A stretch of 64,000 nucleotides of DNA, taken from assembly GCF_025770765.1 (NCBI RefSeq), contig NZ_JANZKY010000012.1:124001-188000 (forward strand), in the 5' to 3' direction. A program made the translations under genes and the position numbers. The notes beneath the pieces were generated by a model. It was not told where the DNA came from. It did no database searches and was given only the letters and a program-made list of their open reading frames with translations. Of the stretch, positions 27,092 through 48,338 are shown in pieces. Source of the DNA: Propionivibrio soli. Its GTDB lineage: Bacteria; Pseudomonadota; Gammaproteobacteria; Burkholderiales; Rhodocyclaceae. Position 1 is the stretch's first letter. Each line of letters opens with the position of its first letter.

Positions 27092-27155
27092 CAGCAAACG
27101 CGCCGTGGCCACTTCGCTGCTCGCCGTCACTTGGAAAACGAGCCGTCATCAACAC

Positions 27156-28733
27156 ATGGAACAATTATCGGAAGCCGACAGGCGGAATCCCAGCGCCGCA
27201 CTCGCCTTTGTTGTCGCCTTTGTCGGAACGGCGCTTTGGTTTGCAGCCACTTGGCGTTACGGGCTTGACCTTTCCGACGAAGGATTCTATTGGTACGGTG
27301 CGCAGCGAGTTCTGCGCGGAGAAGTCCCGCTGCGCGACTTCATGTCATATGACGTGGGGCGGTACTACTGGGCGGCCGCCTTCATGCGTTTAGCCGGCGA
27401 TGGCGTCCTCGGTGCCCGCTTGAGCGCGGCGGCCTACCAGTTTCTCGGTACCTTCGCAGGCCTATGGGTTTGTCTGTCGGCGTTCCGCGGGCGCGGTGTT
27501 TCTCGTCTCGTGTTTGCCTGCGTTGTTGCCGCGGTGTTTACCGTATGGTCAGTGCCGTACTACAAAGCCTATGACCATGCTACCAGCATGATCATCGTCG
27601 CCGTGCTATTGGCGATGCTGAAGGCATCGACATCGCGGGTCTGGTTCGGGGCCGGGGTTTGTCTTGGTTTGGCCGCAATCATGGGACGCAATCACGGCGT
27701 CTACGGCGCGTTCGCCGTGACTCTCTTTGTGATAGTGCTCTTGTTCCGCTCGACCGATCGCCGCGCCATTCTTTCCTTATGCGCGTTTTTCGCAACCGGC
27801 GTGGTCGTCGGATTTTCGCCCACGTTTGTCCTCATGACGACGGCTGACGGGTTTTACGCCGCCTTTGTGCACAGTCTCGCCAAGCTCCTCAAAAGGGGGG
27901 AAACGAATATTCCGCTGCCCGTGCCTTGGCCTTGGCGGAGCGGGTGGAAATGGGAAGGGCCGCTGTGGACGGCGCTGAGGATGTCGACCGGTTTCGGCTT
28001 CGTTTTCCTGGCGGCTATGCCGCTTGTAGGCCTGTTCGCGTTAGCTTATCGGCGCTTCGACCTGAACAATGAACGGAATAGGGTTCTGTTGGCCGCCACC
28101 GCTTGCGCGATCCCGTATGTTCATTACGCGTTCGCACGCGCCGATCTCACCCATCTGGCGCTGAGTATCTTTCCTTCGCTGATCGTCCTGTTTTCCCTGT
28201 TCGCCGATATTCGCCCCTGGAAAACGTTGACTCTTGGGCTCGGTACGTTGAGTGCCTCCATTCTCACGGTCGCCAGCTTGCAAGCGTTTTTTGCCCCGCT
28301 GACTCATGCGCGCCTGGAGCAGGCCGACGTTGACGGGGAGCGCCTGTGGGTCTACCCCGGCGTTGCACGGAAGCTGGAGCTGGCGTCGAAGGTGTTACTG
28401 GCGCCGTCCCCGGGGGCGACCACGGCGGGCTTCCTGGCTATCCCTAACCTGCAGAGCCTGCACGCCATTTACCGGACTCGGATGCCGGTATGGGAAATCT
28501 ACCCGCTGTCCGCCAAAAACGCGGAACTCGAAGTTCGCGAAATAGAGCGCTTGGAGAAATCGCCACCGGGTATTGTGCTTCTCTCCGACCATGGCCTTGA
28601 CGGTGATCCGCGGCGAACGTTGAAGCGAATGCGGCCTCGCATGGCCGCATGGTTCTCTTCCCATTACCGCCTCGCAGGCGATGGGGCGGAATACGGGTTC
28701 TCGGAGATCAAGGTGTTGGCACCGCAACGCTAG
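27156..28733 (+). CDS. GT-C-like integral membrane glycosyltransferase
   Basis: 525 residues from ATG 27156; a GTG at 27105 would add 17 residues. About ten to eleven membrane helices are predicted by eye. After the first helix the periplasmic loop reads LDLSDEGFYWYGAQRVLRGE, an acidic D-E motif in the position used as catalytic base in PMT/ArnT-type GT-C enzymes, followed by FMSYDVGRYYW. A soluble C-terminal domain of about 130 residues ends the protein. GT-C enzymes use polyprenyl-phosphate sugars on the outer face of the membrane, which fits the GT2 gene in the same run. The last 4 bases overlap the converging acyltransferase gene. Confidence 0.78.
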   Translation: MEQLSEADRRNPSAALAFVVAFVGTALWFAATWRYGLDLSDEGFYWYGAQRVLRGEVPLRDFMSYDVGRYYWAAAFMRLAGDGVLGARLSAAAYQFLGTFAGLWVCLSAFRGRGVSRLVFACVVAAVFTVWSVPYYKAYDHATSMIIVAVLLAMLKASTSRVWFGAGVCLGLAAIMGRNHGVYGAFAVTLFVIVLLFRSTDRRAILSLCAFFATGVVVGFSPTFVLMTTADGFYAAFVHSLAKLLKRGETNIPLPVPWPWRSGWKWEGPLWTALRMSTGFGFVFLAAMPLVGLFALAYRRFDLNNERNRVLLAATACAIPYVHYAFARADLTHLALSIFPSLIVLFSLFADIRPWKTLTLGLGTLSASILTVASLQAFFAPLTHARLEQADVDGERLWVYPGVARKLELASKVLLAPSPGATTAGFLAIPNLQSLHAIYRTRMPVWEIYPLSAKNAELEVREIERLEKSPPGIVLLSDHGLDGDPRRTLKRMRPRMAAWFSSHYRLAGDGAEYGFSEIKVLAPQR

Positions 28734-30718
28734 CGTGCCTCGCCGGCCGCTGGCGCGTTGGCGTATTTGTCGGGTTGCCGCGCCGCGTTTTCCAGAATTT
28801 CCCGCAGTTTGAGCTTTTGCACGAGGAGGCGAGAGGCATCATAGGTCAGGTGCCCGCCGTCAACGTAGAGCATCTTGCCATCGAGTTCAGTAACGCAGCG
28901 TGTGCTGTCGCACAGCAGCGGGTCGAACGAAACGATGTCCACGCCGGTTGTTTCGTGCACGCGCGTCAGGAATTCCCGAGTTGCCGAATAGAAGCGCCGA
29001 TATCCGTCCAGCGGCACCGAGCAGTCCTCGGTCGGTGCGCCGACGATGAGTTTTCCCGAAGCTTTCCGTTCCAGACAGGCCCCGATGTTGAAGCCGGCAG
29101 CCGGAGGCGGGCTGACGATCACGACCCGCTTGTTTTGTGCTCGCAACTGTTCGATGGTTTCGGCCATCGACGATACGGCGAGGTCAAGACCGACCGCCTG
29201 GTCTACCGCCTTTCCGTCCACGATTCTCAACGACCGCCAGTGGTGTTTACCCAGATTGGGTTCGAGGTACGGATGGAATGGGCTGGACAGCACGACGGTG
29301 GTAATCGACGAAGCGCGTTTGACGTAATCGAGGACCGACCGGTTGAAATCCAGGCAACTCTGGGCCCACGGGCGCAGATAAAAGGTATCGGAAAGCGGGG
29401 CGAGGTTGGCAAACGGTCCACAATTGCCGCGCGTGGCTTGAACGACGCCTGCATTCGTCGACGCCGCAACCCCTGACACCAGGTGCATCGCATACGAGTC
29501 TCCCCAAACGAGCACTCGCGGCTGGTCGGAGTTCCGGCAGTCCGCGATCGGGGAAAAGTCGGTTTCAAAAGCGCATGCCGCGGCGAAGCCATCGTTCGGT
29601 CGACGGATGTAAGCGTAATCCGGTCCGGCCTCGGGCGCCTGGGCCACGACGGTCGGAATGCCAAGGAGCGCAAATGAAGTGGCCACCGCACCGAAAACAT
29701 AGCGCCGGGAAGGACCCAAGGTCATGCGCCGCGTCGGTAATTCGACGAACCGATAGAGGGCAAGGGCGAGGACGATACCGATGGCCAGTGTCACGAGGTT
29801 TTCCTTGAGCGTGATCGGACCAACGGCGGCGTTTTTCAGGAAAGCAAACGGCGGCCAATGAGCGAGGTACAGGGAATAAGAAATATCGCCGACGCGAGCG
29901 AGAGATCGCGACATCAGCGGGGTATTGAGCAGCGGATGGCGGCGCAAGATGACGATGACGGTAGCCAGACAGACGATGATGGCGTCGAGCCCGGGATGCG
30001 GGAGGCCGGTCGGCATGACAGGGACGACCAACAGTGCAGTGAGTGCGGGCCAGAACAGCCAGCGGAACACCGGAGCCGCGCGTTGAATTTGCGGCGAGAG
30101 AATCGCCGCCAAAGACCCGATTCCCATTTCCCATCCGCGCATCGGCAGAAAATAAAACGTGGCGACAGGCTTTATCGTCAGGAATACCAGGCACAGCCCG
30201 AGACTCGCACCGAGCAGAATGACGGACCCAGAGGGCCAGTACTTTCTCGGCGTGAAAACGAGGAAAGCGGGGAGGATGAGGTAATACTGTTCCTCAAGCG
30301 AGAGTGACCATACGTGAAGAAGCGGCTTCAATTCCGCACCGCCCGAGAAATAGCCGGCCTGCGAAAACAGCACCAGATTGGCTGTGAACGTAAGTGCCCC
30401 GAAGACTTGCGCGGTCAGGTCACGCAGTTCCTGTGCGTTGAGGATAAAGGGGGCGGCGAGGGCCGAAACGAAAAAAGTGACATAAGCCGCAGGTAACAAT
30501 CGCTTGGCACGCCGGAAATAGAATTCGGAAAAGCGGAAGCTGTCGTCTTCGATTCCTTTCTTCACCAGCCCCGTAATCAGGTAACCGGAGATTACGAAGA
30601 AGATGTCGACGCCGAGAAAGCCACCCTTTATCGACCCGATGTCCGCGTGATAAAGGAGGACAAGGGAAACGGCGAGGCCGCGAAGCGCCTGAATATCGGT
30701 TCTGAATCCTGAAGACAC
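28730..30718 (-). CDS. Acyltransferase-3 with C-terminal SGNH domain (OafA-like)
   Basis: 662 residues from a GTG start at 30718 supported by GCGAGG just upstream. Residues about 1-345 are the ten-helix acyltransferase-3 domain (DIQALRGLAVSLVLLYHAD, GGFLGVDIFFVISGYLI, FRRAKRLLPAAY, HVWSLSLEEQYY). Residues about 385-662 are a periplasmic SGNH domain with VLVWGDSYAMHL (Ser408) and the D-x-x-H pair in YVDGGHLTYD. Such fusions O-acetylate cell-surface glycans, the SGNH part completing transfer to sugar. It is the last gene of the long minus-strand operon and converges with the GT-C-like gene, overlapping it by 4 bp. Confidence 0.93.
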   Translation of the reverse strand: MSSGFRTDIQALRGLAVSLVLLYHADIGSIKGGFLGVDIFFVISGYLITGLVKKGIEDDSFRFSEFYFRRAKRLLPAAYVTFFVSALAAPFILNAQELRDLTAQVFGALTFTANLVLFSQAGYFSGGAELKPLLHVWSLSLEEQYYLILPAFLVFTPRKYWPSGSVILLGASLGLCLVFLTIKPVATFYFLPMRGWEMGIGSLAAILSPQIQRAAPVFRWLFWPALTALLVVPVMPTGLPHPGLDAIIVCLATVIVILRRHPLLNTPLMSRSLARVGDISYSLYLAHWPPFAFLKNAAVGPITLKENLVTLAIGIVLALALYRFVELPTRRMTLGPSRRYVFGAVATSFALLGIPTVVAQAPEAGPDYAYIRRPNDGFAAACAFETDFSPIADCRNSDQPRVLVWGDSYAMHLVSGVAASTNAGVVQATRGNCGPFANLAPLSDTFYLRPWAQSCLDFNRSVLDYVKRASSITTVVLSSPFHPYLEPNLGKHHWRSLRIVDGKAVDQAVGLDLAVSSMAETIEQLRAQNKRVVIVSPPPAAGFNIGACLERKASGKLIVGAPTEDCSVPLDGYRRFYSATREFLTRVHETTGVDIVSFDPLLCDSTRCVTELDGKMLYVDGGHLTYDASRLLVQKLKLREILENAARQPDKYANAPAAGEAR

Positions 30719-30775
30719 GGAAACCTCGCTGGTTATCTTGCAACGCTTGGCTGGCTTGCTTCGGAAAAGATTTCT

Positions 30776-31987
30776 TCAACCCGCCGGCTGCGCTGGATCG
30801 GGGACGCTTTTCGAAGTGGCCGGCAGGATTGGGGCGACCGGAGACGAAGTCGCTTCGGCCGGGTAGCTGAGATGACGTTTCTGCTTGCTGCTCATGAACG
30901 GTTTCTCGACATAGATGTGGAAAACCGTGCACAACGCGAGCGTGCCGAGAATGACCAGGGCTATGTAGGCCGGCGTCGTCGGGCTGAAGACCTGCCGGGC
31001 GACCATGGCTGGCCCTTCCAGGACCTTGGCATGCAGGAGATACAGCGAGTACGAAATCATGCCCAGAAATGTGCTTCCCCGGATGACGCCGCGCGCCAAG
31101 GCGTGCCCGTGTTGCAGGTACCGGGCGAGCGGCGCTTCGAGCGGTTCAGCCAACCAGAGAATGAGTGCAGAGACAACGGCGAAGCCCAGCGTGGCAGACG
31201 AAAACATGGCCTGAAGGACATCACCGAGTTTCCCGGCATAGGCGAGGCAGGCGACGAGGAAGATCGACGCGACGGTCAGGGTGGCCGATAGACGTACTGC
31301 CGAATCCCCAAGCCTACCGAGCGTGAATCTGCGCTTCCGAAGGTAGAAAACGACGATCCCTGTCGCGAACATCGGCCAGAAATGGATGAACAGCCCTCCA
31401 TCCAGCGGAAGCGGATAGCGGAGCAGGACGAGGCTGGCGACCGTAATGCCGAGAATTATCAGGTGGAAAAAACGGCGGAAGATCAGGGCGACGTAGACGC
31501 AAAGGTAAAACTGAAATTCGATAGCAAGCGTCCAATAGACACTGTTGATCGGACTGAACTCCGCCTGCAGATCGCCGGTCGGGGTGCCGAAGACCTTCGT
31601 CAGCGTCATCAGTTGTACCCATTCGCCAGCTGACAAGACCCGAATGAGGTTGTTCGGCCAGACGTAGTGCCCCGTCTTTAAGAATGACAAGGCTTCGAGC
31701 AGGTACGGAACCGCCAACACCACGGCAACCGATGCCCAGAAAGGCGGAAAAATGCGCAGAAAGCGCCGCCGCAGGAATTCATTCGCGCTACCCGGCTTCT
31801 TCAGCGAACCTTCGGCGGCCGCCGTAATGACGTATCCCGATATGACGAAGAACAACGGCACCCCGAGGCTCCCGTACGCTGTGAGCTTCGCAAGCCAGGG
31901 GAGCGACTGGGCGAGGGCATCGTTCAGGTGAAACATGAACACCGCGAGGGCGGCCCAACCACGCGCTGTGTCCAAGATGATGTACAT
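30776..31987 (-). CDS. Acyltransferase-3 family membrane protein
   Basis: 403 residues; GAGGTGAA precedes the ATG. The acyltransferase-3 fold is shown by LDTARGWAALAVFMFHLND (R/H pair of the catalytic face), GSLGVPLFFVISGYVITAA, RRFLRIFPPFW and WTLAIEFQFYL. About ten membrane helices; the basic, proline-rich C-terminal tail of about 30 residues is likely cytoplasmic. It transfers acetyl or another acyl group onto glycan at the inner membrane. The second of three consecutive acyltransferase-3 genes, separated from its neighbours by 57 and 109 bp. Confidence 0.92.
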   Translation of the reverse strand: MYIILDTARGWAALAVFMFHLNDALAQSLPWLAKLTAYGSLGVPLFFVISGYVITAAAEGSLKKPGSANEFLRRRFLRIFPPFWASVAVVLAVPYLLEALSFLKTGHYVWPNNLIRVLSAGEWVQLMTLTKVFGTPTGDLQAEFSPINSVYWTLAIEFQFYLCVYVALIFRRFFHLIILGITVASLVLLRYPLPLDGGLFIHFWPMFATGIVVFYLRKRRFTLGRLGDSAVRLSATLTVASIFLVACLAYAGKLGDVLQAMFSSATLGFAVVSALILWLAEPLEAPLARYLQHGHALARGVIRGSTFLGMISYSLYLLHAKVLEGPAMVARQVFSPTTPAYIALVILGTLALCTVFHIYVEKPFMSSKQKRHLSYPAEATSSPVAPILPATSKSVPDPAQPAG

Positions 31988-32031
31988 ACTTCACCTCTTC
32001 AACGATTAGGGGGATAACGGGTGGTCGGGGA

Positions 32032-32051
32032 CGAGGAATCTCGCTTCCTCG
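32032..32051 (-). repeat. Intercistronic 7-bp hairpin
   Basis: CGAGGAA (32032-32038) pairs perfectly with TTCCTCG (32045-32051) across a 6-nt loop, in the 109-bp gap between two acyltransferase genes of the minus-strand operon. No T tract follows in the direction of transcription, so an RNA-processing or stability role is more likely than termination. Confidence 0.35.
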
Positions 32052-32096
32052 GAATAGCTGTTTGGTATTTGTACGCCGGCAGCGCCCTGCGCATCG

Positions 32097-33305
32097 TTAC
32101 GACGGAAGTATTGGCGCCAGCTGTCTGGCGTCGCCACGTGGACTTCGGAATACGCGACGGATGAGAGTTTTCCCCGCGTCAATAAAAGGTTGCTCGATGA
32201 AACGATATGTTGCCGCCGATACAAAGCGGGTGACCACGATAGCCAAGGCAAGCAGCGCAATCGCGTAGGGGATCGAAGCGGCACCGACCTTCGCGAAGGG
32301 CCAAAAGCGATCGAAGAACATGCCGACGAATTTCAGGACGGCGAAGTGCAGCACGTAGGCGCTGAAGCTTACCTTTCCCAGCCCGGCGACGGCAGAGTTG
32401 ACGGCGAAACCTCGAGGCTTGATCACGATGACGATGGCCCAGGCGAGGAACAGTATCGAGATCAGAAGATGCGTTGGAGGCAGGCCAAGGGGCCATTCGA
32501 AAAACTTGCGCGGCCCGTAATACGAAAGGGCAACGAGGAGGGCGCAAAGAACGAATGAGGCATTGTTGGCGGTAACCCGACTGGATACTAGCCACGCTTT
32601 GATCGACTCGTTGGTCACCGAGTGATAAAGGAGGAAGCCTAGGGAAAAAATAATCAGTTGATTAGGCGGCCAGAAATAGAGGAAGTTGGATCGCGCTTCC
32701 GCCGATATTTCGGGATACAGATGCGCGCCGGCGATAGAAGAAACAATCAGCAGGGCGAGTGCCGCCACGAAGAAAACGACGGCACGGCGCAGTGTGGTGA
32801 TGAGTACCGCGAGGAAGGGGAACGCGAAATAGAAGCAGAATTCGACGCTGATACTCCAGCCGCCGGGTACCGGCGTCCATCCTGGCACAGTCGGCGTCAG
32901 GTAAGGGCTCCAGGCGTTATAGAAAAGCAACGTGGAGATGAGCAGTTCGAAACTGAACTCTGCGGGCGTCCGCTGGTACGCAAACCAGTAAAACAATACC
33001 GCAAGGTAGTAGAGCGGAGCGATGCGGAAGAAACGCCGCAAAAGAAACTTGCCGCTCCGCCGTGCGAAGCCGTCGTCGCTGCGGTGCCATGACATGAGCA
33101 AAGTCAGCGCGGAGGCAAGGAAGAAAAGCTGAACCCCATAGAAGCCGAGAGAAAGAAGACGCTTCGCCGGCCATACAAGTTCTTTGACGACGTTGAGCGA
33201 GTGCACTGCAATGACGAGCAGGATGGCATAACCCCGCAACGCGTCAACGACCTGCAAGTGATCTTGCTGATCGAAAGCCCAGTTTTTTTCCGTCGGATCG
33301 GTCAT
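32097..33305 (-). CDS. Acyltransferase-3 family membrane protein
   Basis: 402 residues. Motifs: VVDALRGYAILLVIAVHSLN, LGFYGVQLFFLASALTL, RRFFRIAPLYYLAVL and GWSISVEFCFYFAFPFL. The SGY segment of typical members is replaced by ASALTL, a common variation in the family. About ten membrane helices are present; the C-terminus has a typical AATYRFIEQPF ending. Substrate unknown; O-acylation of the EPS is inferred from context. It lies 53 bp after the kelch gene in the same direction. Confidence 0.91.
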   Translation of the reverse strand: MTDPTEKNWAFDQQDHLQVVDALRGYAILLVIAVHSLNVVKELVWPAKRLLSLGFYGVQLFFLASALTLLMSWHRSDDGFARRSGKFLLRRFFRIAPLYYLAVLFYWFAYQRTPAEFSFELLISTLLFYNAWSPYLTPTVPGWTPVPGGWSISVEFCFYFAFPFLAVLITTLRRAVVFFVAALALLIVSSIAGAHLYPEISAEARSNFLYFWPPNQLIIFSLGFLLYHSVTNESIKAWLVSSRVTANNASFVLCALLVALSYYGPRKFFEWPLGLPPTHLLISILFLAWAIVIVIKPRGFAVNSAVAGLGKVSFSAYVLHFAVLKFVGMFFDRFWPFAKVGAASIPYAIALLALAIVVTRFVSAATYRFIEQPFIDAGKTLIRRVFRSPRGDARQLAPILPS

Positions 33306-33358
33306 GGCGTATATAGACGTGCGGCGATTCCCGGAAGTTCAGCCTGCCTGGAAGGCCA

Positions 33359-35977
33359 TTAAGGCTTTACCGGCAGCATGTGCACAGCCACCGGCCCCGT
33401 ACCGTACGTGCCGACCTCAAGGGCGATGAAAACGTCGTGCTTTTCACTATAGACGACGCCGCTCGTGCCGGGGTTTTTTGTTGCCGGGCCGGGCCCCAAG
33501 CGACGCAAGGTATTGGTGGCGCGCGTGAGCCACCAGGTACTCTGGTTGGCCGGGCCGGGAAGAATCAGCAGGGCATCGTGCTTCGGGCTGTACGCCACCC
33601 CCCACGCCATCGACGTTGGGGCTTGCTGGGAGGTGGGCTCCACCTCGACGGTTTCGCGCGTCCATTTGCCCGAGGCGATATCGAAACTATAGAAAGCGTT
33701 GGCAGGAGCGCCGGGTTTTTCGTCGGCCGCGCCGTAGAACAGGATGCGCTTGCGCTTTGAATCAAAAACCGCCTTCGAGCGGTCGTTGGCCGCGAACGGC
33801 GTGTCGCTGCCTGGAATGCGCACGAACTCGCCGGCCGCCTTATCCAGTCGCCATACCCCGAACGGCCCGCCATACCAATGCTTCGGGCTCACCGTATAGA
33901 AGCCGTCGGCTCCCGACATGTCTACGGCACCCCCGAGCGTGCCGGGACCGTTCTTGCGGACGCTGCCCTCACTCCAGCGCATGCGGTCCGCGTCGTAAGG
34001 CAGGCCGCTGAGCAGCGTGCGGTCGAGATCGGCGCTGTATGCGTAGGCGTGGTAGCCGTGGCCGGACCCCTTGCGGTGGTAGAACGGCGGATTCCATCCG
34101 TCACCATCCGGGCTGCCGAATGGCCATGGCGGCATATCGGGCGGCCAGGACTCCATCCACAGATTTCCCTTGATGTCGTACTGGCTGACCTCGTTGCCCA
34201 TGTATGCCGAGTGCCCGCCACCCCAGAGAATCAGTTGTCCCCGCACCGGGTCGAGCGAAAACGAGCCGTAACTTCTGTCCTGGGCGCTGTAACCGGTATT
34301 GATGCGAGTCCATGTGTTGGCAGGCAGGCGGGAGAGAACGCCGGCGTGAGCGGCTACCCGGGAACGGTATTCCGCCTGCGTCTTGGGTAGGGCCGCCCAC
34401 GCACGTTCGTACTTATCGTTCAGCCAGACCCAGCGTGGTCCGGAGTAGTCAGCCGGCTGAGCGCGCGCCACGTCGAGCCGCAGATGCGCAACGCGCAGCG
34501 GGTTGGCGTCGAAGAGATTGTCGCCCGTCTGCACGGCGACGTGCAGGTGCCTCCCAGCGTCGTAAGCAATCGCCGTCCACGGTTGGGAAAACTCCTTGGC
34601 CGCGCCGAGCTGCACGCGGCGCCATTCGTCTCGCGCGGCGTCGTAGATCCATCCGGACGAAAGCAGCGCTACGCCGTGTTCGGTGTCGAAGCTCATCGCC
34701 GGCATCTGCGTGGCCGGAGGGTGCCCTTTGGCCCGCGATTGTCGCCACTGATTCCGTCGCGAGTCGAATACCCACGTGTCGGCGAGCACGCGATCTCCGC
34801 CGTGGCCGCCGAACAAGACGAGTACTCCGTTCCGTGTATCGGTCACGAGATTGCCGTAATAGCGGGGCAGCGGACTCGGTGCGAGATCCTCCTCCGCGTC
34901 TGCCATTGCCAAGCGTGCCGCCTCGAACGCGTGCAAGGCCTTCCAGCCATCTTGATCGGATAGGGCGCGTCGAGCGGCCGCAAGGTGTCCGCGCACCTTC
35001 TCGATGCCCGCTGCGGCTGTCTGGCACTGTTGGCGTTCGTATTCGCCCTCGCAGTTTTCGGCACGGGAAAGGCGCTCGCGATAGCTGCCCAAGGTCGACG
35101 AAAAGGCGTCCGTGTCGCCAGCCAGATCGGCAGGCGATTTTCCGGAAATCCGATCGCCGTACTCGAGCGCAATGCCTCGCGTCGACCCAGCCAGTGTTTC
35201 AATCGAGCGGACGAATTCATCCGTCTTTTCGTGGTGCTCGCGGAATCCCGCCGACCCCGTCTCGATCCGGGACCATTTGTTTGTCTCTGGATCGAAAGCC
35301 CAGGTGCTGCGCTTGAGCGCCATGGTCCAATCGGCAGGCATCCAGGGCTTGCCTTTCAGCGGCCCGCTTTGCATATTCTGCGTATTCCCGATCGTCGCCT
35401 TGTAGGCGCTGATATAGCCGCCTCCAAACAAGATGACGCGCTTGCCGATCGGGTCCCAGGCCATTGAACCGAGCATCACGTCGGGCGGTGACTGATCGAG
35501 CGGGATCTCGAGGTTTTCCCAGCGCTTGGCCTCGGGGTCGTAGGTGAAAGTACTGCCGCCGGCAAAAAACAGAACCTTCTTTGTCGTCGGCACGTACGTC
35601 GCTTGATGGGCCAGCCAGTACGGCCGGTTAACGGTCGGCAGCCCAGGCCGCTGGTTGGCATCGAAGGCCGTTGTGAGGCTCGTGCGCGGGCGATGGGGGC
35701 CGCGTCCGGGGATCGGTTCTTCCCAATCCCGGGTCGCCGGCCGGTAAAGACGCAGGTCCGCCTGCGCCGACTTGGGCGGTGGATAGCCGAAGTACAGAAA
35801 CGCCTTCTGCTCGGGCAGGTAGGTAATGCCCGCGATGGTGCCGCCGCGGCTTTCGCTGGTCTGCGTCCAAGCATTCGCGGGCAGGTTCTCGGCGAGCGCC
35901 GGCGTGCCGATAGCGACCGATGCGGACCCTATCAGCCCGAAGATCAACCGCATGCCGCATAGACGGATGCTGCTCAT
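33359..35977 (-). CDS. Secreted double kelch beta-propeller protein
   Basis: 872 residues from the ATG at 35977, whose ATGA overlaps the stop of the upstream PL26-like gene; the longer open frame to 36388 lies within that gene. Residues 1-29 are a Sec signal peptide ending ALA-E. Kelch-like blades are recognisable (VLFFAGGSTFTYDP, RVILFGGGYISAY, LVLFGGHGGDRVLADTWVFD, LILWGGGHSAYMG). Two propellers are likely, because the same start motif LPAN-(A/T)-WT occurs at about residues 32 and 551. A charged helical insert at about 245-362 interrupts the first propeller. Galactose-oxidase-like folds bind or oxidise glycans, but no Cys-Tyr cofactor pair is evident. Function unknown; binding or processing of the EPS outside the cytoplasm is inferred from coupling to the upstream gene. 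Confidence 0.85.
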   Translation of the reverse strand: MSSIRLCGMRLIFGLIGSASVAIGTPALAENLPANAWTQTSESRGGTIAGITYLPEQKAFLYFGYPPPKSAQADLRLYRPATRDWEEPIPGRGPHRPRTSLTTAFDANQRPGLPTVNRPYWLAHQATYVPTTKKVLFFAGGSTFTYDPEAKRWENLEIPLDQSPPDVMLGSMAWDPIGKRVILFGGGYISAYKATIGNTQNMQSGPLKGKPWMPADWTMALKRSTWAFDPETNKWSRIETGSAGFREHHEKTDEFVRSIETLAGSTRGIALEYGDRISGKSPADLAGDTDAFSSTLGSYRERLSRAENCEGEYERQQCQTAAAGIEKVRGHLAAARRALSDQDGWKALHAFEAARLAMADAEEDLAPSPLPRYYGNLVTDTRNGVLVLFGGHGGDRVLADTWVFDSRRNQWRQSRAKGHPPATQMPAMSFDTEHGVALLSSGWIYDAARDEWRRVQLGAAKEFSQPWTAIAYDAGRHLHVAVQTGDNLFDANPLRVAHLRLDVARAQPADYSGPRWVWLNDKYERAWAALPKTQAEYRSRVAAHAGVLSRLPANTWTRINTGYSAQDRSYGSFSLDPVRGQLILWGGGHSAYMGNEVSQYDIKGNLWMESWPPDMPPWPFGSPDGDGWNPPFYHRKGSGHGYHAYAYSADLDRTLLSGLPYDADRMRWSEGSVRKNGPGTLGGAVDMSGADGFYTVSPKHWYGGPFGVWRLDKAAGEFVRIPGSDTPFAANDRSKAVFDSKRKRILFYGAADEKPGAPANAFYSFDIASGKWTRETVEVEPTSQQAPTSMAWGVAYSPKHDALLILPGPANQSTWWLTRATNTLRRLGPGPATKNPGTSGVVYSEKHDVFIALEVGTYGTGPVAVHMLPVKP

Positions 35978-40305: not shown

Positions 40306-40314
40306 GATGTTGTC

Positions 40315-41067: not shown

Positions 41068-41104
41068 TTCAGTTCCCCAAGCAAAATCCATTTGCGAAGC
41101 GTAG

Positions 41105-41127
41105 CACTTCCCGCCGGGCCGGAAGTG
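41105..41127 (-). repeat. Intercistronic 7-bp hairpin before the TPR gene
   Basis: CACTTCC (41105-41111) and GGAAGTG (41121-41127) flank a 9-nt G/C loop in the 78-bp gap between the SGNH and TPR genes. There is no U tract on the transcribed minus strand. It may define a processing point that separates the acylation genes from the downstream secreted-protein genes. Confidence 0.35.
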
Positions 41128-41145
41128 GAGTGTTGGTTACAGGCG

Positions 41146-42186
41146 TCATCGGCTGAGTTTTTCCGCGATGAGGTTGCTCGCTACTCGAACAGCATCTCGG
41201 TTCCAATGGTGATCGTAAGGACCGACTTCAAGGGAGCGACCTGAACCCGCCTCAAAAGCGCGGAACGCCTCCGTCGTATCCACCACGATCTCTTTTCTCG
41301 CCTCCGCTTCCGTCCGTAATAGCTGCAGATCTTCTGTTTCAGCGATCGGACCATCGAGCAGATGCGCCCGGTCGGCGTCGATTACAAACATGAATCGTCC
41401 TCCGTCGATCGTGGATAGCCGGGAGAAGAATTGGTTCAATACCGTTCTAGCGACCGACAGCGGAGCGCCGGAGTTCCCTTGCTTGCGCGGCGTCTGGCCT
41501 GGTGGGCTGGGCGCTGTCTGCCACTTGGTCAGCAGGTTCTTAACCGCCAACGCAGGATCGAACTTCAACTGCGAGAAAACGTATTGCGCCAAGGCCGATT
41601 CCCGCAGCAACCGTTTAGCGGCAGAAGGAGGAGGCTGGGTTTCGGTCTGCAGGTTCATCTTCGCGTCAAAGCAGGGACCGTGTACGTTGCCTGATCCGCA
41701 CATCGCCTGCTTTACGTCGCCGCGTTCAATGACGAAGACAAAGGTCTTGATGCCAAAATGCGTTGCGGCAAAGCGGGCCCGTTCGGCGTAATCGAGCAGA
41801 TTCGAGCCTGGGCCTCCAAACGCATAAACCTGCCGTCCGCGCAGTTGTTTCTCCAGTTGTGCCGCTGGCCGGTCCTGAGCCGGAAGCATGTTTGCCTCGA
41901 TGAAACTGTCGCCAATCAGTGCAACCGCGTTTGGGTCGCTCTCAAAATCGTGATCGGCAACGAAACCGTAGTTATTGGCGCAGATGCGCTGGTTATTCTT
42001 CAGATCCCAGCCAGTGGCCGCCACGAAGCAATGGTGGGCCGGGTAGGTGAGGATGACGGGGTCGGCGTAGTAACCACTGCGTGTAGCGGTCGACACCGGC
42101 AGTATCCGGAACAGCACTTCCAGAAGGATCAGGACGAGCGCAATGCCGGCAGCGAACCACGGGAATGTCGTAAGCAAGCGTCGCAT
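41146..42186 (-). CDS. Membrane-anchored SGNH hydrolase-like O-acetylation protein (AlgJ/AlgX-like role)
   Basis: 346 residues starting 2 bp after the MBOAT gene. One N-terminal membrane helix (FAAGIALVLILLEVLFRIL) anchors a periplasmic SGNH domain. The GDS block is VALIGDSFIEAN with Ser94, and the C-terminal D-x-x-H region is GPYDHHWNRDAVR. The Asp-His-Ser set for acetyl transfer is therefore present. MBOAT proteins of the AlgI/DltB type pass acyl groups across the membrane to such partners, which place them on the glycan. Two cysteines near CGSGNVHGPC may form a disulfide. Confidence 0.87.
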   Translation of the reverse strand: MRRLLTTFPWFAAGIALVLILLEVLFRILPVSTATRSGYYADPVILTYPAHHCFVAATGWDLKNNQRICANNYGFVADHDFESDPNAVALIGDSFIEANMLPAQDRPAAQLEKQLRGRQVYAFGGPGSNLLDYAERARFAATHFGIKTFVFVIERGDVKQAMCGSGNVHGPCFDAKMNLQTETQPPPSAAKRLLRESALAQYVFSQLKFDPALAVKNLLTKWQTAPSPPGQTPRKQGNSGAPLSVARTVLNQFFSRLSTIDGGRFMFVIDADRAHLLDGPIAETEDLQLLRTEAEARKEIVVDTTEAFRAFEAGSGRSLEVGPYDHHWNRDAVRVASNLIAEKLSR

Positions 42187-42188
42187 GG

Positions 42189-43685
42189 TCAGAAATTGAA
42201 ATAGATGAAGGCGCTGACGCTATCCCGCGCCGCGTTGACCAGAACCAGGAACGCCGAGGAAACGAGCGTCGCGCCAAGTGCGATCGCAACGAAGCGCCCG
42301 CCCTTGCGGCAATGCGCGAGCAAGGCTTCCCCGATCCGGTTGCTGTTAGGCATGAGAAAGGAAATGCCGGCCAAGGCAACCAGCCAGACGGCGCCGCGAC
42401 CGACGTCGAGCCCGCGATTTCCCAAGATGACCGGCGGGAACATTTCACCGGTAACAGTTGAAGGCGTCACCATGCCGTTGAGGACCCGGAGCGCTGTCGG
42501 AAAATCCGGTGCACGGAAGAACACCCATGCGACCACCGCGCTGAGAAAGGTCATAGCCCATGCGACGAGCTTGAATGCCGGACCGTTAAGGTCGTAGAAA
42601 TTGTTCACCAGTTTTTGAAACGCGTGATTGATGACCAGGTAGATTCCGTGCAGCGTTCCCCAGAACACGAAAGTCCAACTGGCGCCGTGCCAGAGTCCTC
42701 CGAGCACCATGGTGACCATCAGGTTGATGTAGCGGCGGCGCGGGCCTTTCTGGTTTCCGCCGAGCGGAATATAGAGGTAGTCGCGTAGAAAGGCCGAAAG
42801 CGTCATGTGCCAACGACGCCAGAAATCGGAGATGTTGAGTGCCTTGTACGGCGAATTGAAGTTGTACGGCAGCTTGACGTTGAACATCCACGAGAGCCCG
42901 ATCGCCATGTCGGAGTACCCGGAGAAGTCGAAATAGAGCTGAAAGGTGTAGGCGAGAGCACCCATCCACGCTTCGACGAGATGGGGATGTTGCCCGAGGG
43001 CGGCCGCGTTGAATACGGCGTCGGCGTATGGGCTGACGCCATCTGCGAAGACGACCTTCTTGCTCAGCCCGATAGCGAATATCGCCATGCCTGCGGCCAC
43101 ATTCGCCACGTTCAACCGGTAGGTCGCGACTTCCTTGAACTGCGGCATCATCTGCGCGTGATGCAGGACGGGGCCGGCGATCAGATGCGGGAAGTAGGTT
43201 ACGAAAAGACCGAAATGAACGAAACGGTACTCCCGGGTTCCTTTCAAGTAACTGTCCGCGAGGAAGGCGATTTGCGTGAAGGTAAAGAACGATATGCCGA
43301 TCGGAAGGACGATGTTCCCCAGACTCCATGTCTGGTCGAGCAAGGCGTTCAGGTTGGCAATGAAGAACCCGGCGTACTTGAAATAGGCGAGGACGACGAG
43401 ATCGCCCGTTACGCCGATGATGAGCCAGCGCTTGGCTCGCCGCCTTTTTCTTTCATCGCCACCGAGTGGGTCCAACGTTCCGATATGTTTTCCGACAACG
43501 AAATTCCAAACAATCGACCCTAAGAGAAGAAGCGTGAATTCCGGCATCCAGTAGCCGTAAAACGCGACCGAGGCGCCGAATAGCCACGCCGCGGCGGCTA
43601 GTGGCCAACGTCCGCCCAGGACGTAATATCCGGCGAATACGACGGGGAGATAGACGCAAAAAAAAGCCGCGCTGGTAAAGAGCAT
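42189..43685 (-). CDS. MBOAT family O-acyltransferase (AlgI/DltB-like)
   Basis: 498 residues with about eleven membrane helices. The family features are plain: an N-terminal FFCVYLPVVFAGYYVLG, the central FDFSGYSDMAIGLSWMFN with PYNFNSPYKALNISDFWRRWH-type segment (here seen as NFNSPYKALNISDFWRRWH), and the catalytic histidine His333 in GGLWHGASWTF. It takes acyl groups from a cytoplasmic donor and exports them for transfer by the adjacent SGNH protein. An ACP at the head of the same operon could be the donor carrier, instead of acetyl-CoA (inference). Confidence 0.93.
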   Translation of the reverse strand: MLFTSAAFFCVYLPVVFAGYYVLGGRWPLAAAAWLFGASVAFYGYWMPEFTLLLLGSIVWNFVVGKHIGTLDPLGGDERKRRRAKRWLIIGVTGDLVVLAYFKYAGFFIANLNALLDQTWSLGNIVLPIGISFFTFTQIAFLADSYLKGTREYRFVHFGLFVTYFPHLIAGPVLHHAQMMPQFKEVATYRLNVANVAAGMAIFAIGLSKKVVFADGVSPYADAVFNAAALGQHPHLVEAWMGALAYTFQLYFDFSGYSDMAIGLSWMFNVKLPYNFNSPYKALNISDFWRRWHMTLSAFLRDYLYIPLGGNQKGPRRRYINLMVTMVLGGLWHGASWTFVFWGTLHGIYLVINHAFQKLVNNFYDLNGPAFKLVAWAMTFLSAVVAWVFFRAPDFPTALRVLNGMVTPSTVTGEMFPPVILGNRGLDVGRGAVWLVALAGISFLMPNSNRIGEALLAHCRKGGRFVAIALGATLVSSAFLVLVNAARDSVSAFIYFNF

Positions 43686-43715
43686 GCTGTGGGACTGACT
43701 GCCGAAGCCGTCGTT

Positions 43716-45422
43716 CTAGCGAGAAGGCATGGCGAAGTTGGGCGCCCGCGCCCGTAGCCATTGCTCCAGCATCATCGAAATCCAGATCATTTCGCCGTAG
43801 TACCCGGGATGTTCGTACAGGCGATGCGTGACGAGCTCGTCGACGAACGCAGCGCGGAGGATGCCGCGATGGACCAGACCGTGGATCGATTCGAACGCAA
43901 GTTCTCGCAGCTTATCGTGCCGTGTTACCCAGACCCCGAACGGAAGGCCGAACCCCTGTTTCTTCTTGACCAGGATTTCGTCCGGCAGGAAGCCGCGCAA
44001 GGCTTCCTTGAAGAACCAGCGCAGCTTGAGCCCTTTCAGCTTATATTCAGCCGGCAGTCGCAGTGAAAATTCAAGCAAGTCCGCATCGAGCATCGGGAAA
44101 GTGACGTCAATTCCGGCCAGTGCCGCTGTTCCGCACACTTTTGGCAAATCGCTTTCGGCGAGCGTGAACCGCCAGTCGAAGGCCAGTTCCCGGTTGACGT
44201 CGTTCTGGGTATGAGCGCTTTTCCAGACTTCGCGTTGCAGACGCAGCGGTGCGTCGAGGTCGATCGCGGCCAGGAACCCCGGCGTCAGCGCATCGTCCGT
44301 TCCGAGACGAGTGATTAGGTTGTACATTTTCAGGCGGTCCGGCATCGGAACGCTTGCCTGTTCGACATAACTCGCCGCCTTGCGAACGAGCGGAACGCGC
44401 CCGGCGGCCGCCGTGCCGAGGACCGGTTCCAGTACGCCAGTGCGCAGCAGCCCAGGAAAATGCCGATACCAGTTGAAGATACGCTGCTTGGCGTAGCGCG
44501 AATTGCCGCCGAAAAGCTCGTCGCCACCATCGCCCGCCATGATTCGCGTCACCCCGTCTTCCTTCGCCATGCGGGCGCAATAATAGGCGGGCAGGGCAGA
44601 AGAGTTGCCGAATGGCTGGTCGTAGTGCGTTGCCACGTCCGGTACGCCACGAACGACGTCCTCCGGGGTGACGTAATACTCATGGTGTTCGGTTTTGAAA
44701 TGCCGGGCGGCGATTCGGGCGTACTCCATTTCGTCGTAACCTTCGGCCTTGAATCCGATGGAGTACGTCGCTGCCGTACGACCGGTCGCCAAGCCAAGCA
44801 TTCCCGCCACGGTCGAGCTATCCGTCCCGCCGCTCAGGAAACAGCCGGGCTTGCCGCCATCGAAGCGTCGTTCGACGGCTTGCTGAAGCAATTGCCGGAA
44901 CTCGTCGCGTAACCGTGGAAAGTCGGGGCGCCCATTGTCTTCGAACTCGGGCACCCAGTACGGCGCGACCGCTAGTTGGCCGTTGCGGAATACGACGTAA
45001 TGCGCGGGCGGGACGCGGAAGACTCCCTTGAAGATCGTCCGTGGTGAGGGAATGGCGTGAATGTAAAGGTAATCGAAGATCGCCTGCGGATCGATCGAGG
45101 AACCGCCGTCAGCCAGATCGTCGGCGCGTTCAGCGAATCGCAACTCGTTATTGACGACCCGATAGCAGAGCGTCCGGATGGCAAACCGGTCGACAGCCAG
45201 GAAGACGCTGCCGTCAGGCGCCGTCAAACCGACGGCGAAATCCCCGGTGACCATTCTCGCCACGTCGGTACCGCGGCGCGAGAATGCTTCTGCCCAGGCC
45301 GCTGCTTCACCTTCACTATGAGCTAGGCGCTGGATGTCAGCGTCCGCAAAGCGTGGATGGCCGATAGACAGCACTTTTGTTCCCTGCTGCTTGACGCGCG
45401 GCGCGTCAGTTGTCGCGTTCAT
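43716..45422 (-). CDS. Asparagine synthase-like protein lacking the glutaminase cysteine
   Basis: 568 residues, starting MNATTDAPRVKQQG with AGGAAAAC upstream. The N-terminal domain (about 190 residues) keeps the Ntn-fold outline, such as VTGDFAVGLTAPDGSVFLAVDRF, but has no Cys2. The synthetase domain is intact: SGGTDSS at residues 197-203, DQPFGNSSALPAYY and MAGDGGDELFGGNSRYAKQ. It therefore probably uses free ammonia or another amine, or makes an amide/lactam, as in beta-lactam synthetase-like relatives. It lies between the VanZ-type and MBOAT genes. It is not a duplicate of the complete enzyme at 1790: length and N-terminus differ. Confidence 0.88.
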   Translation of the reverse strand: MNATTDAPRVKQQGTKVLSIGHPRFADADIQRLAHSEGEAAAWAEAFSRRGTDVARMVTGDFAVGLTAPDGSVFLAVDRFAIRTLCYRVVNNELRFAERADDLADGGSSIDPQAIFDYLYIHAIPSPRTIFKGVFRVPPAHYVVFRNGQLAVAPYWVPEFEDNGRPDFPRLRDEFRQLLQQAVERRFDGGKPGCFLSGGTDSSTVAGMLGLATGRTAATYSIGFKAEGYDEMEYARIAARHFKTEHHEYYVTPEDVVRGVPDVATHYDQPFGNSSALPAYYCARMAKEDGVTRIMAGDGGDELFGGNSRYAKQRIFNWYRHFPGLLRTGVLEPVLGTAAAGRVPLVRKAASYVEQASVPMPDRLKMYNLITRLGTDDALTPGFLAAIDLDAPLRLQREVWKSAHTQNDVNRELAFDWRFTLAESDLPKVCGTAALAGIDVTFPMLDADLLEFSLRLPAEYKLKGLKLRWFFKEALRGFLPDEILVKKKQGFGLPFGVWVTRHDKLRELAFESIHGLVHRGILRAAFVDELVTHRLYEHPGYYGEMIWISMMLEQWLRARAPNFAMPSR

Positions 45423-45492
45423 GACGGTTTTCCTATTCTGGTTCTTGGTTCGTCTTCGTTTATGTGACTCAAGTTCTTCGTTGCCATACCTA

Positions 45493-47817
45493 TCACCAGC
45501 GCCCCCTCTGTTCCCCGGCGCGAAGATGCGAGAACTGAATTAGTCCCAGGGCAACGGCGAGTACCGCATAAGTGACGGCATGTCGCGCATATCGCGCGGG
45601 GGCCGCGAGCTTTTCCAAGTCGCTTGTGCTAGGCATGAACTGCAAGGCGGAGAGCATCTTTCCGTGCTCAAGTACCGTCGGCTCTAATCCATACCAGAAC
45701 GCAATTGTCGCTATCGTTGCCGCGGCTGCCGCTATTAGGGCAGCCCGGGGGCGCCTATCTGCAAATGCGATGAATGCTCCCACAGATGCTGCCGCCAGGA
45801 ACAAACCCAGAGCCCCAAGGCCGAGTACGGCGCTGGTGACGAAGCTGCCTCCTCCGCGCATTATTTGCGTCATGCCGCCCGACGCCGTCAGGTCGAAGAT
45901 GACAAAATGCAACGGCCAGGCGAGCATCGCCGTAAACATCGTCCAGGTAAGAAAGGCGGCTACGTTGCCGCGTTCGAATACAAGCAGGGCGAACAATAGA
46001 GCACCGAGGGCAGCAAGAGCGACGACGGCATGCAAGGCAAGAAATCGGCCGATTAGTTCCCAATTCCATGGCCAGCCGAGGACTGGCGCTCCAATAAAGC
46101 TGTAAAACCGATCAATAGACACCACGGGTTGCAGCAAGGTCCACACGACGAGTCCCTGTGCTACCAACCACAGGGGCAGGAGAAAGAGACGTCCGGCTGT
46201 CTTCGCCCAGTTCAGGAACATGACGTGACCCGTACCGACCAGATAGCTTGCCGCGGCAACGAGGGCGATCGCAACAATCCTTGCGATACTGGCGGAGGTA
46301 GGTCTTGTGTGATTGACGAAATGCGCCATGAGGGAAATGGCGACCATCAATGCCAAAAACGTAATGGCGTGGCTTGTCCAAACGGGCCAAGGCGTGGAAG
46401 GAGGTTTCTCGAGACGGAAGGGCCTCTGTGCGGCTCGCACCGGACTCTGTTCGGCGCTGCCGCTAGCAGAATCGTGTCCGGCGAGTATCCATCGCATCAA
46501 CACGAGCCCGGCAATTCCTCCAAGGGTGCCGAGCAGGACGTCCGTCAGGTCTGCATATCTCCCAGGAAGAAACAGCTGCCCAGCTTCGCTGACGAAGGGA
46601 ACGAACGCGAGCCCAGACACGTCGGCCAAGCGCGGTCGGAAGCGCTTGGGAATACCCCGTGCGCGAGCTGCCGAGAAAAGCGCCCAAAGTACTCCGACAG
46701 GCATGAAGAATCCTGTCTTGCGGAGCAATTCATTAATGGCGTGGTATTCACTACCTTGATACAGCATTAAGAACGGCACTCGGGCGATTGCCCGCCACGC
46801 ATCATCAAGAGGGGCGGGCGGCATCTGGAAACCGAACGGATACCAGAAAACCCCGAGGACGATGGAAGCGACGATTACCCAGCCGAAAAACCAGAATTCC
46901 GGTCCCGCTTCGGCAATCAAGGCCAGCCAGCGGCGACCATGGGCCGCTGCGAATCCGCCAGCCATTCCCCCGGCCGCCGCCAAGAGAATGTCTGCGGTAT
47001 CTGTTACACGGGAATAAACGAAGAGCTGAAAACCCTCGATTGCCGCCGCCGCGAGTGCTGTGGACAAGGTCGTCCACAGCAACGAAGACCTTCGTCTGAG
47101 CGCCCAGAAGACTCCGACAGGTAGCCAGATGAGGACGTCGGTCAGGTATCCGTACAGGCTTTGCGCAGTACTGCCTTTGATGCCGGTAAATGGAAGCAGG
47201 ACGACCCGTCCTTCGCGCCATTTGTGATAGAGCTCGACGACGCTCACGGTCAAATCGAGCGGCATCATGCTGAATGCAAAAATGATCAGCAGATAGATGT
47301 GCAGCAACCTGCCTAAGCGATCCTGCTTGGATTCCATCCGCCACACGGCATCGAGCCAATTGCCTACCGTGTGGCCCCAGGCGTACTGCGCCGCGACCCC
47401 CACCATTCCTCCGAGGCTGAGCGCGAAGACGTCGCGTTGCGAAACAGTACGCGGGGGGAAGTACAGCTGGCTGAATTCGAGGAACACGGCAAGCCCCACA
47501 CCGCACCCGGCGACACCCAAGCGGAGCAACATCCCGATCAGGCCGCGTCGGTCTCCGACAATACGTTGCGCAACAAGAAACGACAGCGGGATGAGGAGGA
47601 GAAAGTTGACGGTCCAATCGGTAACCGATTGGATCCGTTGATCATGGAACGGGAGCGCAAGGAATGCGTCTACGGCGACATTCAGCGGAATAGGTGTGAA
47701 CCGCAGAGGAACCCAGCTGCCATAGATAACCAGAAGGAGGTACAGAATCGAAACCGAACTCAGCAAGCGCCGCGATGAAGCACGCGCAGCCGCGACGCCC
47801 ACCGGTGTATCGCTCAT
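45493..47817 (-). CDS. Multi-VanZ-domain integral membrane protein
   Basis: 774 residues, mostly membrane helices (about eighteen). VanZ-like units recur: one near residues 25-155 (DWTVNFLLLIPLSFLVAQ, VFLEFSQLYFPPRTVSQRDVF), a second near 205-310 (YLTDVLIWLPVGVFWAL, EGFQLFVYSRVTDTADILLA) and a third near 350-450 (LLRKTGFFMPVGVLWALF, EAGQLFLPGRYADLTDVLLG). Each shows the E-x-x-Q-L/F...D-(V/I)-L pattern. A further hydrophobic region of about 300 residues has no recognisable domain. VanZ domains occur in teicoplanin resistance and in EPS loci, but the reaction is not known. The start codon sits directly after an RNA hairpin containing the ribosome-binding site. Confidence 0.85.
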   Translation of the reverse strand: MSDTPVGVAAARASSRRLLSSVSILYLLLVIYGSWVPLRFTPIPLNVAVDAFLALPFHDQRIQSVTDWTVNFLLLIPLSFLVAQRIVGDRRGLIGMLLRLGVAGCGVGLAVFLEFSQLYFPPRTVSQRDVFALSLGGMVGVAAQYAWGHTVGNWLDAVWRMESKQDRLGRLLHIYLLIIFAFSMMPLDLTVSVVELYHKWREGRVVLLPFTGIKGSTAQSLYGYLTDVLIWLPVGVFWALRRRSSLLWTTLSTALAAAAIEGFQLFVYSRVTDTADILLAAAGGMAGGFAAAHGRRWLALIAEAGPEFWFFGWVIVASIVLGVFWYPFGFQMPPAPLDDAWRAIARVPFLMLYQGSEYHAINELLRKTGFFMPVGVLWALFSAARARGIPKRFRPRLADVSGLAFVPFVSEAGQLFLPGRYADLTDVLLGTLGGIAGLVLMRWILAGHDSASGSAEQSPVRAAQRPFRLEKPPSTPWPVWTSHAITFLALMVAISLMAHFVNHTRPTSASIARIVAIALVAAASYLVGTGHVMFLNWAKTAGRLFLLPLWLVAQGLVVWTLLQPVVSIDRFYSFIGAPVLGWPWNWELIGRFLALHAVVALAALGALLFALLVFERGNVAAFLTWTMFTAMLAWPLHFVIFDLTASGGMTQIMRGGGSFVTSAVLGLGALGLFLAAASVGAFIAFADRRPRAALIAAAAATIATIAFWYGLEPTVLEHGKMLSALQFMPSTSDLEKLAAPARYARHAVTYAVLAVALGLIQFSHLRAGEQRGRW

Positions 47818-47820
47818 TGC

Positions 47821-47839
47821 CCCCTCGCAGCGCGAGGGG
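47821..47839 (-). promoter_or_regulatory. Hairpin that would sequester the ribosome-binding site of the VanZ-type gene
   Basis: CCCCTCGC and GCGAGGGG (8-bp perfect arms, 3-nt loop) end 3 nt before the start codon at 47817. On the transcribed minus strand the 3' arm contains GAGGGG, the only Shine-Dalgarno-like sequence available. Folding would hide it, suggesting translational control or dependence on upstream translation. Confidence 0.5.
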
Positions 47840-47992
47840 TGCCGGCTTGCCGAGCGTGAGTCCGATGCAATTGGGTTGGTACGCTTGCGCTCTCGTTCAT
47901 ATTTTTCGGCGAAAACAATGAAGCGGCCAACATTGAAACAGCGCCGCGCGGCTGATGTCGAAGACGCGGCAAGAAGACCGCCGCGCGCGGGA

Positions 47993-48244
47993 TCAGGCGC
48001 CCGTCTTTTCGTTCACGAATTTGAGCAACGAGCCCAGTGTCGCAAAGGTTGCACCGTCGATCTCGTCGTCATCGACCGAGAACCCGAAAGTCTCTTCAAG
48101 GCGAGCGATCAAGGCAACAACGGCCATCGAATCGAGTTCGGGGATGGCCCCGAGCAATGCGGTCCGTTCGGTGAAATCGGCCGATCGCCCATTGAGATTG
48201 AGCACATCATCGAGTATGGACAAGATCTTATTTTTCGTATCCAA
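47993..48244 (-). CDS. Acyl carrier protein, exosortase A-associated
   Basis: 83 residues from a TTG start at 48244, preceded by GGAG with a 6-nt spacer; the first codons read (M)DTKNKILSILDDVLNL, the usual beginning of these ACPs. The longer frame from ATG 48268 would leave almost no leader after the TATAAT at 48278. The phosphopantetheine-attachment serine is Ser39 in PELDSMAVVALI. The C-terminal part ATFATLGSLLKFVNEK is typical of helix IV. It probably works with the acyl-CoA ligase encoded divergently 95 bp away and with the PLP decarboxylase after it, a set that recurs in XrtA clusters. The acyl group carried is unknown. Confidence 0.9.
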   Translation of the reverse strand: MDTKNKILSILDDVLNLNGRSADFTERTALLGAIPELDSMAVVALIARLEETFGFSVDDDEIDGATFATLGSLLKFVNEKTGA

Positions 48245-48250
48245 GTTCAG

Positions 48251-48254: not shown

Positions 48255-48269
48255 AAAGCGAAAGTCAAA

Positions 48270-48290: not shown

Positions 48291-48338
48291 AAGGCCCAAT
48301 CGACTGTGAGATACTACGCGCCGTCCAATAACGTCCTC

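Follow-up and report, generated by a model that had tools for sequence, protein, structure and literature searches.

In a 64,000-nt stretch of the Propionivibrio soli genome (contig NZ_JANZKY010000012.1; hereafter, the window), 11 minus-strand open reading frames (ORFs) at 28730–48268 run from an acyl carrier protein (ACP) gene to a gene encoding an acyltransferase-3 (AT3) domain fused to an SGNH domain. Based on sequence comparisons, we consider it fairly probable that this directon is a composite added onto an XrtA/PEP-CTERM exopolysaccharide (EPS) locus, and that its ACP forms a trio with a ligase and a pyridoxal phosphate (PLP) decarboxylase that makes a decarboxylated aminoacyl-ACP. In the proposed mechanism, the ligase would adenylate an amino acid having a second carboxylate and load it onto the ACP, and the BtrK-like decarboxylase would strip the free alpha-carboxylate of the ACP-bound amino acid. 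The product would be a decarboxylated aminoacyl-S-ACP, such as a gamma-aminobutyric acid (GABA)- or beta-alanyl-type thioester, the group of which would decorate the EPS or its precursor. The MBOAT–SGNH genes (which would be an ordinary EPS O-acylation pair), a PL26-like/kelch pair, and three AT3 genes would then be lineage-specific insertions that tailor the polymer. The evidence on the trio points to ACP-bound amino acid decarboxylation, unlike the acyl-CoA name of the ligase, and gives the trio a directly testable role. This role would lie in a system linked to floc and biofilm matrices, and it suggests a concrete chemical group to seek on the polymer.

The EPS setting, which had been proposed in a preliminary description of this DNA, was borne out by exosortase A, PrsK, PrsR, PrsT, and an EpsB-type glycosyltransferase, and a role in EPS tailoring is likely. 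The left side of the window encodes exosortase A (TIGR03109, 270.8 bits), a putative O-glycosylation ligase, XrtA glycosyltransferases, and an intact AsnB (TIGR03108, 1079 bits), and the right side encodes the TIGR03098 ligase, the TIGR03099 decarboxylase, EpsB, PrsK (TIGR02916), PrsR (TIGR02915), and PrsT (TIGR02917). All the locus markers, as well as EpsB, TIGR03098, and TIGR03099, scored over their cut-offs. The window differs from the usual XrtA locus in that the directon adds the MBOAT–SGNH, PL26-like/kelch, and three AT3 genes, and no match to the hydrolase hydr1 (TIGR03100) was found in the window genome.

ACP, ligase, and decarboxylase genes at XrtA loci

The ACP gene (47993–48268, minus strand; PF00550, 28.6 bits) encodes a protein of 83–91 amino acids. 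It had been described as ending at 48244, and an in-frame TTG does lie there, but this is the later of two candidate starts, the first TTG being at 48268. Depending on the TTG used, 61 or 37 bp separate the ACP start from the start of the divergent gene for the XrtA-associated, adenosine monophosphate (AMP)-forming ligase (48306–49955, plus strand; TIGR03098, 787.7 bits, with a cut-off of 592), which is followed by the gene for the XrtA-associated PLP decarboxylase (49980–51227, plus strand; TIGR03099, 614.7 bits). TIGR03098 and TIGR03099 are both hypothetical-equivalog families, and the name of the former points to acyl-CoA chemistry.

We compared the window with 249 genomes of the same bacterial family (its own included), in 132 of which a TIGR03098 ligase scored over the cut-off, leaving 117 negative, and with 60 XrtA-ligase stretches from 59 genomes. 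The stretches, chosen ahead of the MBOAT survey, were mostly one per genus, together with same-genus and extra ones, and extended approximately 9.2 kb on each side of the ligase where the contig was long enough; several contigs were short, and two stretches (L050 and L078) were under the ligase cut-off. When only matches covering at least half of the query were counted, the decarboxylase was present in 56 of the 60 loci and the ACP in 49, whereas AsnB was found in 23, the TPR protein in 11, VanZ in five, AT3–SGNH in two, MBOAT in one, and the PL26-like and kelch genes in none. Because of these counts, we regard the ligase and decarboxylase genes (48306–51227) as the standing partners of the ACP gene, which appears to belong to a widespread conserved three-gene unit with them. 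As in the window, 28 of the 49 ACP genes were divergent from the ligase gene and <500 bp away from it; two others were close and co-directional, and 19 were farther away. The phosphopantetheine Ser was invariant in all 49 rows of the ACP alignment (the window and 48 loci that passed a 50-bit score filter).

The best PDB matches of the XrtA ligase were amino-acid adenylating enzymes, and VinN was the best single enzyme (199 bits; 3WVN, with PDB codes and VinN residues as given in the available part of PMC11253843). Asp236 of the ligase, equivalent to GrsA D235 and VinN D230, which hold the amino group of the substrate, was present in all 60 XrtA ligase rows (the window and 59 loci; L078 was below the score filter and left out) and in none of nine other AMP-binding enzymes drawn from two genomes. 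Arg336 was distributed in the same way (60/60 and 0/9). The arrangement also resembles that of the vicenistatin-type VinN/VinL/VinO starter-unit system, in which a stand-alone adenylating enzyme is combined with an ACP and a PLP decarboxylase.

The decarboxylase is closer to BtrK than to diaminopimelate (DAP) decarboxylase, as judged from scores and diagnostic residues. Specifically, its best solved relative was BtrK (254.7 bits), compared with 155.2 bits for the best DAP decarboxylase. Reciprocally, BtrK scored 218–293 bits against 57 XrtA decarboxylases, including that of the window, and 117–164 bits against 13 LysA proteins, 12 of which came from this bacterial family. At 45 diagnostic columns, each at least 90% conserved within the XrtA and LysA groups but differing between them, BtrK agreed with the XrtA group at 24 and with LysA at two. 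Position 366 of the window enzyme, in a CT(P)xD stretch, was Thr in all 57 XrtA enzymes and in BtrK, and Glu in all 13 LysA proteins. BtrK is described in the available part of PMC7857480 as the L-glutamyl-ACP decarboxylase of butirosin synthesis. The XrtA loci thus resemble the butirosin BtrI/BtrK system in their BtrK-type decarboxylase residues, with BtrK as the best solved relative, and in the dedicated small ACP that adjoins the decarboxylase.

If the names of TIGR03098 and TIGR03099 were taken literally, an acyl-CoA ligase and an amino-acid decarboxylase would act on free metabolites, and the ACP would be unrelated to them. The conserved adjoining of the ACP, the amino-acid-type Asp in the ligase, and the BtrK-type rather than LysA-type residues of the decarboxylase make this quite improbable. 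Several observations nevertheless weigh against the chemistry that we propose. BtrK agreed with neither group at 19 of the 45 diagnostic columns. The butirosin ligase, BtrJ, is an ATP-grasp enzyme and not an AMP-binding one like the XrtA loading ligase, and the EPS setting is a further difference from butirosin synthesis. Eleven of the 60 loci had no ACP match close to the ligase, although the upstream flank of four of these was <5 kb long. The top total PDB scores of the ligase were those of two-domain nonribosomal peptide synthetase (NRPS) proteins, with gramicidin synthetase first, and not that of VinN. From VinN, the XrtA ligase differs in its EPS setting and at the position of Phe231, a residue specific for beta-amino acids according to the available part of PMC11253843; 57 of the 60 rows have Ala there, and the other three have Tyr. 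Because a conserved bulky residue is lacking at this position, there is no support for a substrate pose like that of VinN, and the XrtA ligase may activate an ordinary alpha-carboxyl group.

Searches confined to an open-licence library pointed to no paper that connects XrtA loci with BtrK-type chemistry. The available parts of PMC11253843, PMC7857480, PMC2907700, PMC9012009, and PMC1569441 (Haft 2006) state no function for the trio, and the terms decarboxylase, ligase, acyl, carrier, asparagine synth, and amidotransferase are absent from that of PMC1569441.

Other genes accompany the trio at some loci. Hydr1 scored over its cut-off in 81 of the 132 ligase-positive and four of the 117 ligase-negative genomes (uncorrected for relatedness). 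In two loci of the same genus (L037 and L039), exosortase-A hydrolase families adjoined the ACP gene (TIGR03100 in both; TIGR03101 was sought in L039 alone). In another locus (L117, 7300–9087), a 595-amino-acid ORF beside the ACP gene contained two alpha/beta-hydrolase stretches and is apparently a fusion of the two exosortase-A hydrolases. Paired XrtA ligase genes, both over the TIGR03098 cut-off and approximately 6 kb apart in one genome, were also observed (L086, from G199; G145). The N-acyl amino acid synthase TIGR03694, which was present in 101 of the 249 family genomes, scored 41.7 bits in the window genome, under its cut-off of 111.95, and was therefore rejected as a partner of the ACP here.

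AsnB-like and TPR genes recur in the trio loci, as do VanZ genes at a lower frequency. The AsnB-like gene of the directon (43716–45422, minus strand; PF00733, 259 bits; TIGR03108, 228 bits, not reaching the cut-off of 817) encodes an amide synthetase lacking the N-terminal catalytic Cys of glutamine-dependent asparagine synthases. In a string test of 24 stop-to-stop frames of this gene and its relatives, two of which were short, none had MCG upstream of the PP-loop; MCG was present (as MCGITG) in the second AsnB of the window (1790–3733). The AsnB-like enzyme would probably couple ammonia or an amine to a carboxylate with no use of glutamine. According to the available part of PMC9012009, a conserved gene cluster of floc formers contains two asparagine synthetase genes. 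The small TPR protein is encoded at 40315–41091 (minus strand; PF13414, 29.7 bits), and its 11 homologues lay within 9.2 kb of the ligase. The VanZ-family gene (45493–47817, minus strand; PF04892, 105 bits) encodes a long membrane protein of 774 amino acids with three VanZ stretches.

The MBOAT–SGNH pair and its possible acyl donor

The MBOAT gene (42189–43685, minus strand; PF03062, 104 bits) encodes an O-acyltransferase of the DltB/AlgI type and adjoins a gene (41146–42186, minus strand) for a membrane-anchored partner of the acylesterase type. The latter protein had no Pfam or NCBIfam match and only a meaningless match in a sequence search of the PDB, and its identity came from the fold search. 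G92-D93-S94 (GDS) and D325/H327 (DxH) were invariant across 13 aligned sequences, and the AlphaFold2 model (predicted local distance difference test [pLDDT], 84) had an SGNH/GDSL fold, as judged by a Foldseek search that ranked PatB 4th and 8th and DltD 47th. Based on the GDS motif, the C-terminal Asp/His, and this predicted fold, the protein is an SGNH hydrolase.

Among the 249 genomes, we identified 10 full-length relatives of the MBOAT at 61–66% identity, and the SGNH gene adjoined the MBOAT gene in all of them. The pair was located within 10 kb of the ligase gene in three: it was adjacent to the ACP gene in G192, approximately 1 kb from it in G140, and approximately 4 kb from it, with two genes between, in G075. 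The other seven pairs, five of them in one genus, were far off or on another contig, and the stretches surrounding them (L151–L157) contained no ACP or ligase match. In G144, the AsnB–MBOAT–SGNH–AT3 order recurred, with a VanZ gene upstream, on a contig other than that of the ACP and ligase genes. A conserved sub-block therefore exists, but the evidence tying it to the ACP is at most suggestive. The preliminary description had proposed that the ACP supplies a non-acetyl acyl group to the MBOAT. The ACP probably does carry a non-acetyl group, but its supply to the MBOAT is weakly indicated: the XrtA ligase was present in each of the 10 genomes that had a window-like MBOAT, a link that is weak because five of them belong to one genus.

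Ligase, carrier, MBOAT, and SGNH functions are close together in the window, as in the Dlt system (DltA, B, C, and D). In a Dlt-like route, which is a sharper form of the supply proposed in the preliminary description, the ligase would load the ACP, the decarboxylase would trim the bound amino acid, and the MBOAT and SGNH proteins would pass the aminoacyl group to the EPS. We consider this route unlikely. All five of the required functions sit together in the window, the closest solved structure to the MBOAT is DltB, and DltD is among the fold-search matches of the SGNH protein, but any AlgI-type MBOAT is expected to resemble DltB. The DltB model (TIGR04091), at 164.8 bits for the MBOAT, and the DltC model, at 24.7 bits, fell far under their cut-offs of 375 and 68 bits, respectively, and the PLP decarboxylase is an addition to the Dlt scheme; by these models the set is not a Dlt member, although it may work in a Dlt-like manner. 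An MBOAT match was more common with the ligase (51 of 132 genomes) than without it (21 of 117; p = 4e-4, uncorrected for relatedness), and yet 81 of the 132 ligase-positive genomes had none. Similarly, the three pairs near the ACP and the presence of the ligase in all 10 genomes with an MBOAT of at least 61% identity favor the route, whereas the seven pairs away from the ACP do not, and the MBOATs near the ACP were scattered within the clade without forming one of their own (in a FastTree drawing without support values). The lack in the window genome of hydr1, an ACP neighbor in the same-genus loci, would also suit a Dlt-like transfer. The idea that the MBOAT replaces hydr1 as the off-loader was rejected, because hydr1 was lacking in seven of 13 genomes with a nearby MBOAT and in 44 of the other 119, a link that was not significant (p = 0.25).

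Alternatively, the MBOAT–SGNH and AT3 proteins may simply O-acetylate the EPS with acetyl-CoA, with the ACP trio serving a separate step, and we see the arguments for and against this as evenly balanced. Glycan acetylation is an established role of AT3 and MBOAT/SGNH proteins, and seven of the 10 close MBOAT–SGNH pairs had no nearby ACP; left unexplained is the proximity of the ACP in four genomes, including that of the window. A broader proposal is that XrtA EPS loci encode a hybrid of the butirosin and Dlt systems, in which an amino acid loaded on a dedicated ACP is decarboxylated there to an omega-aminoacyl thioester and passed to the polymer via MBOAT–SGNH in some lineages. We consider this unlikely; if it were true, a biofilm polysaccharide would carry aminoacyl groups with a positive charge.

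These distributions are more in keeping with a composite directon than with the self-contained tailoring module of the preliminary description. Most ligase-positive genomes (81 of 132) lack an MBOAT match, the ACP goes with the ligase and decarboxylase, and the PL26-like/kelch pair is separate. Rather than retaining a conserved order in relatives, the genes were largely scattered, both among the 60 loci and in the MBOAT–SGNH pairs, only three of 10 of which were near the ligase.

The PL26-like and kelch genes

The PL26-like gene (35974–40305, minus strand) encodes an apparently secreted protein of 1443 amino acids that resembles PcRGLX (polysaccharide lyase family 26), with the first, second, and third PcRGLX domains (PF21346, PF21345, and PF19501) all above the gathering score. 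It differs from PcRGLX in its extra N- and C-terminal regions and in domain 3, the best stretch of which covers only profile positions 4–177 of 411. The adjoining gene (33359–35977, minus strand) encodes an apparently secreted kelch-repeat protein of 872 amino acids with matches to kelch families; its AlphaFold2 model, built on a two-sequence alignment, had a pLDDT of 42.6. The overlap of the two genes at 35974–35977, noted previously, is a real stop–start overlap. Both proteins are probably secreted polysaccharide-processing or -binding proteins.

With the window genome included each time and the others distant, PL26-like proteins were found by protein search in three of 121 family genomes and five of 300 in the order, and PF21346 scored over its cut-off in three of the 249 family genomes. 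When 84,980 species genomes were scanned with six short, single-sequence peptide patterns, a search sensitive to close relatives alone, one full-length relative (63% identical) was identified, in the metagenome-assembled genome HGW-Betaproteobacteria-7 (L120). Its kelch gene was also 63% identical to that of the window, and the kelch start overlapped the PL26-like stop by one base. No EPS gene was recognized within 10 kb of this pair, and no other window gene had a match in the 24 kb around it. The 10 flanking ORFs scanned included transporter parts, a carbon–nitrogen hydrolase, and a histidine kinase, along with five unnamed ORFs, and the XrtA ligase of this genome was on another contig. A conserved neighborhood of these genes across XrtA genomes, which the preliminary description had suggested looking for, was absent from all 60 loci, and the single coupled pair lay outside an EPS locus. 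The G+C content of the 33–41-kb stretch (0.60–0.64) is slightly above that of its flanks (about 0.58–0.60). The pair thus forms a separate unit that was probably acquired.

More complete PcRGLX-family proteins, with domain 3 at about 550–561 bits, were observed in two further stretches (L104 and L105, from G074 and G245), at only 23–24% identity to the PL26-like protein of the window.

Directon layout and neighboring EPS genes

The gene order and strand of the 11-gene run were as previously described, by both ORFs and Pfam. The gene labels were backed by Pfam matches to PP-binding, VanZ (three stretches), Asn_synthase, MBOAT, TPR (weak), PcRGLX, kelch, and Acyl_transf_3 domains, the last of which was found in three genes. 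Two of these encode acyltransferase-3 alone (32097–33305 and 30776–31987, both on the minus strand; PF01757, 97 and 100 bits, respectively), and the third (28730–30718, minus strand) encodes the fusion to the SGNH domain (PF01757, 76.8 bits; PF19040, 150.3 bits). From the AT3–SGNH gene to the ACP gene, the spacers are 57, 109, 53, −4, 9, 54, 2, 30, 70, and 175 bp, consistent with the short spacing (mostly <180 bp) noted earlier. A sigma-70 scan gave no promoter-like sites, compared with 6.2 for shuffled sequences; terminator-like sites numbered 24, which is at chance level (22.4 in shuffles). A 542-amino-acid ORF (27105–28733, plus strand), convergent with the directon, had no Pfam or NCBIfam match.

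Several other genes of the window, all on the plus strand, were also noted. In the EPS locus, the gene at 13045–13887 encodes an aminoglycoside 3-N-acetyltransferase-like protein (PF02522, 144 bits), with a 57% relative in L045, that is more likely to be an amino-sugar N-acyltransferase than a resistance protein. The gene at 13841–15091, in the same locus, encodes a GH127/glucuronyl C5-epimerase-like protein. Two more AMP-binding enzymes are encoded in the window, one PaaK-like (23442–24797) and one with a weak AMP-binding match (5972–7408). The EPS locus also encodes an ATP-grasp enzyme (20608–21813) with a weak match, just under the cut-off, to an L-amino-acid-ligase C-terminal domain (PF18603); this enzyme could attach amino acids either to a sugar or to the aminoacyl group.

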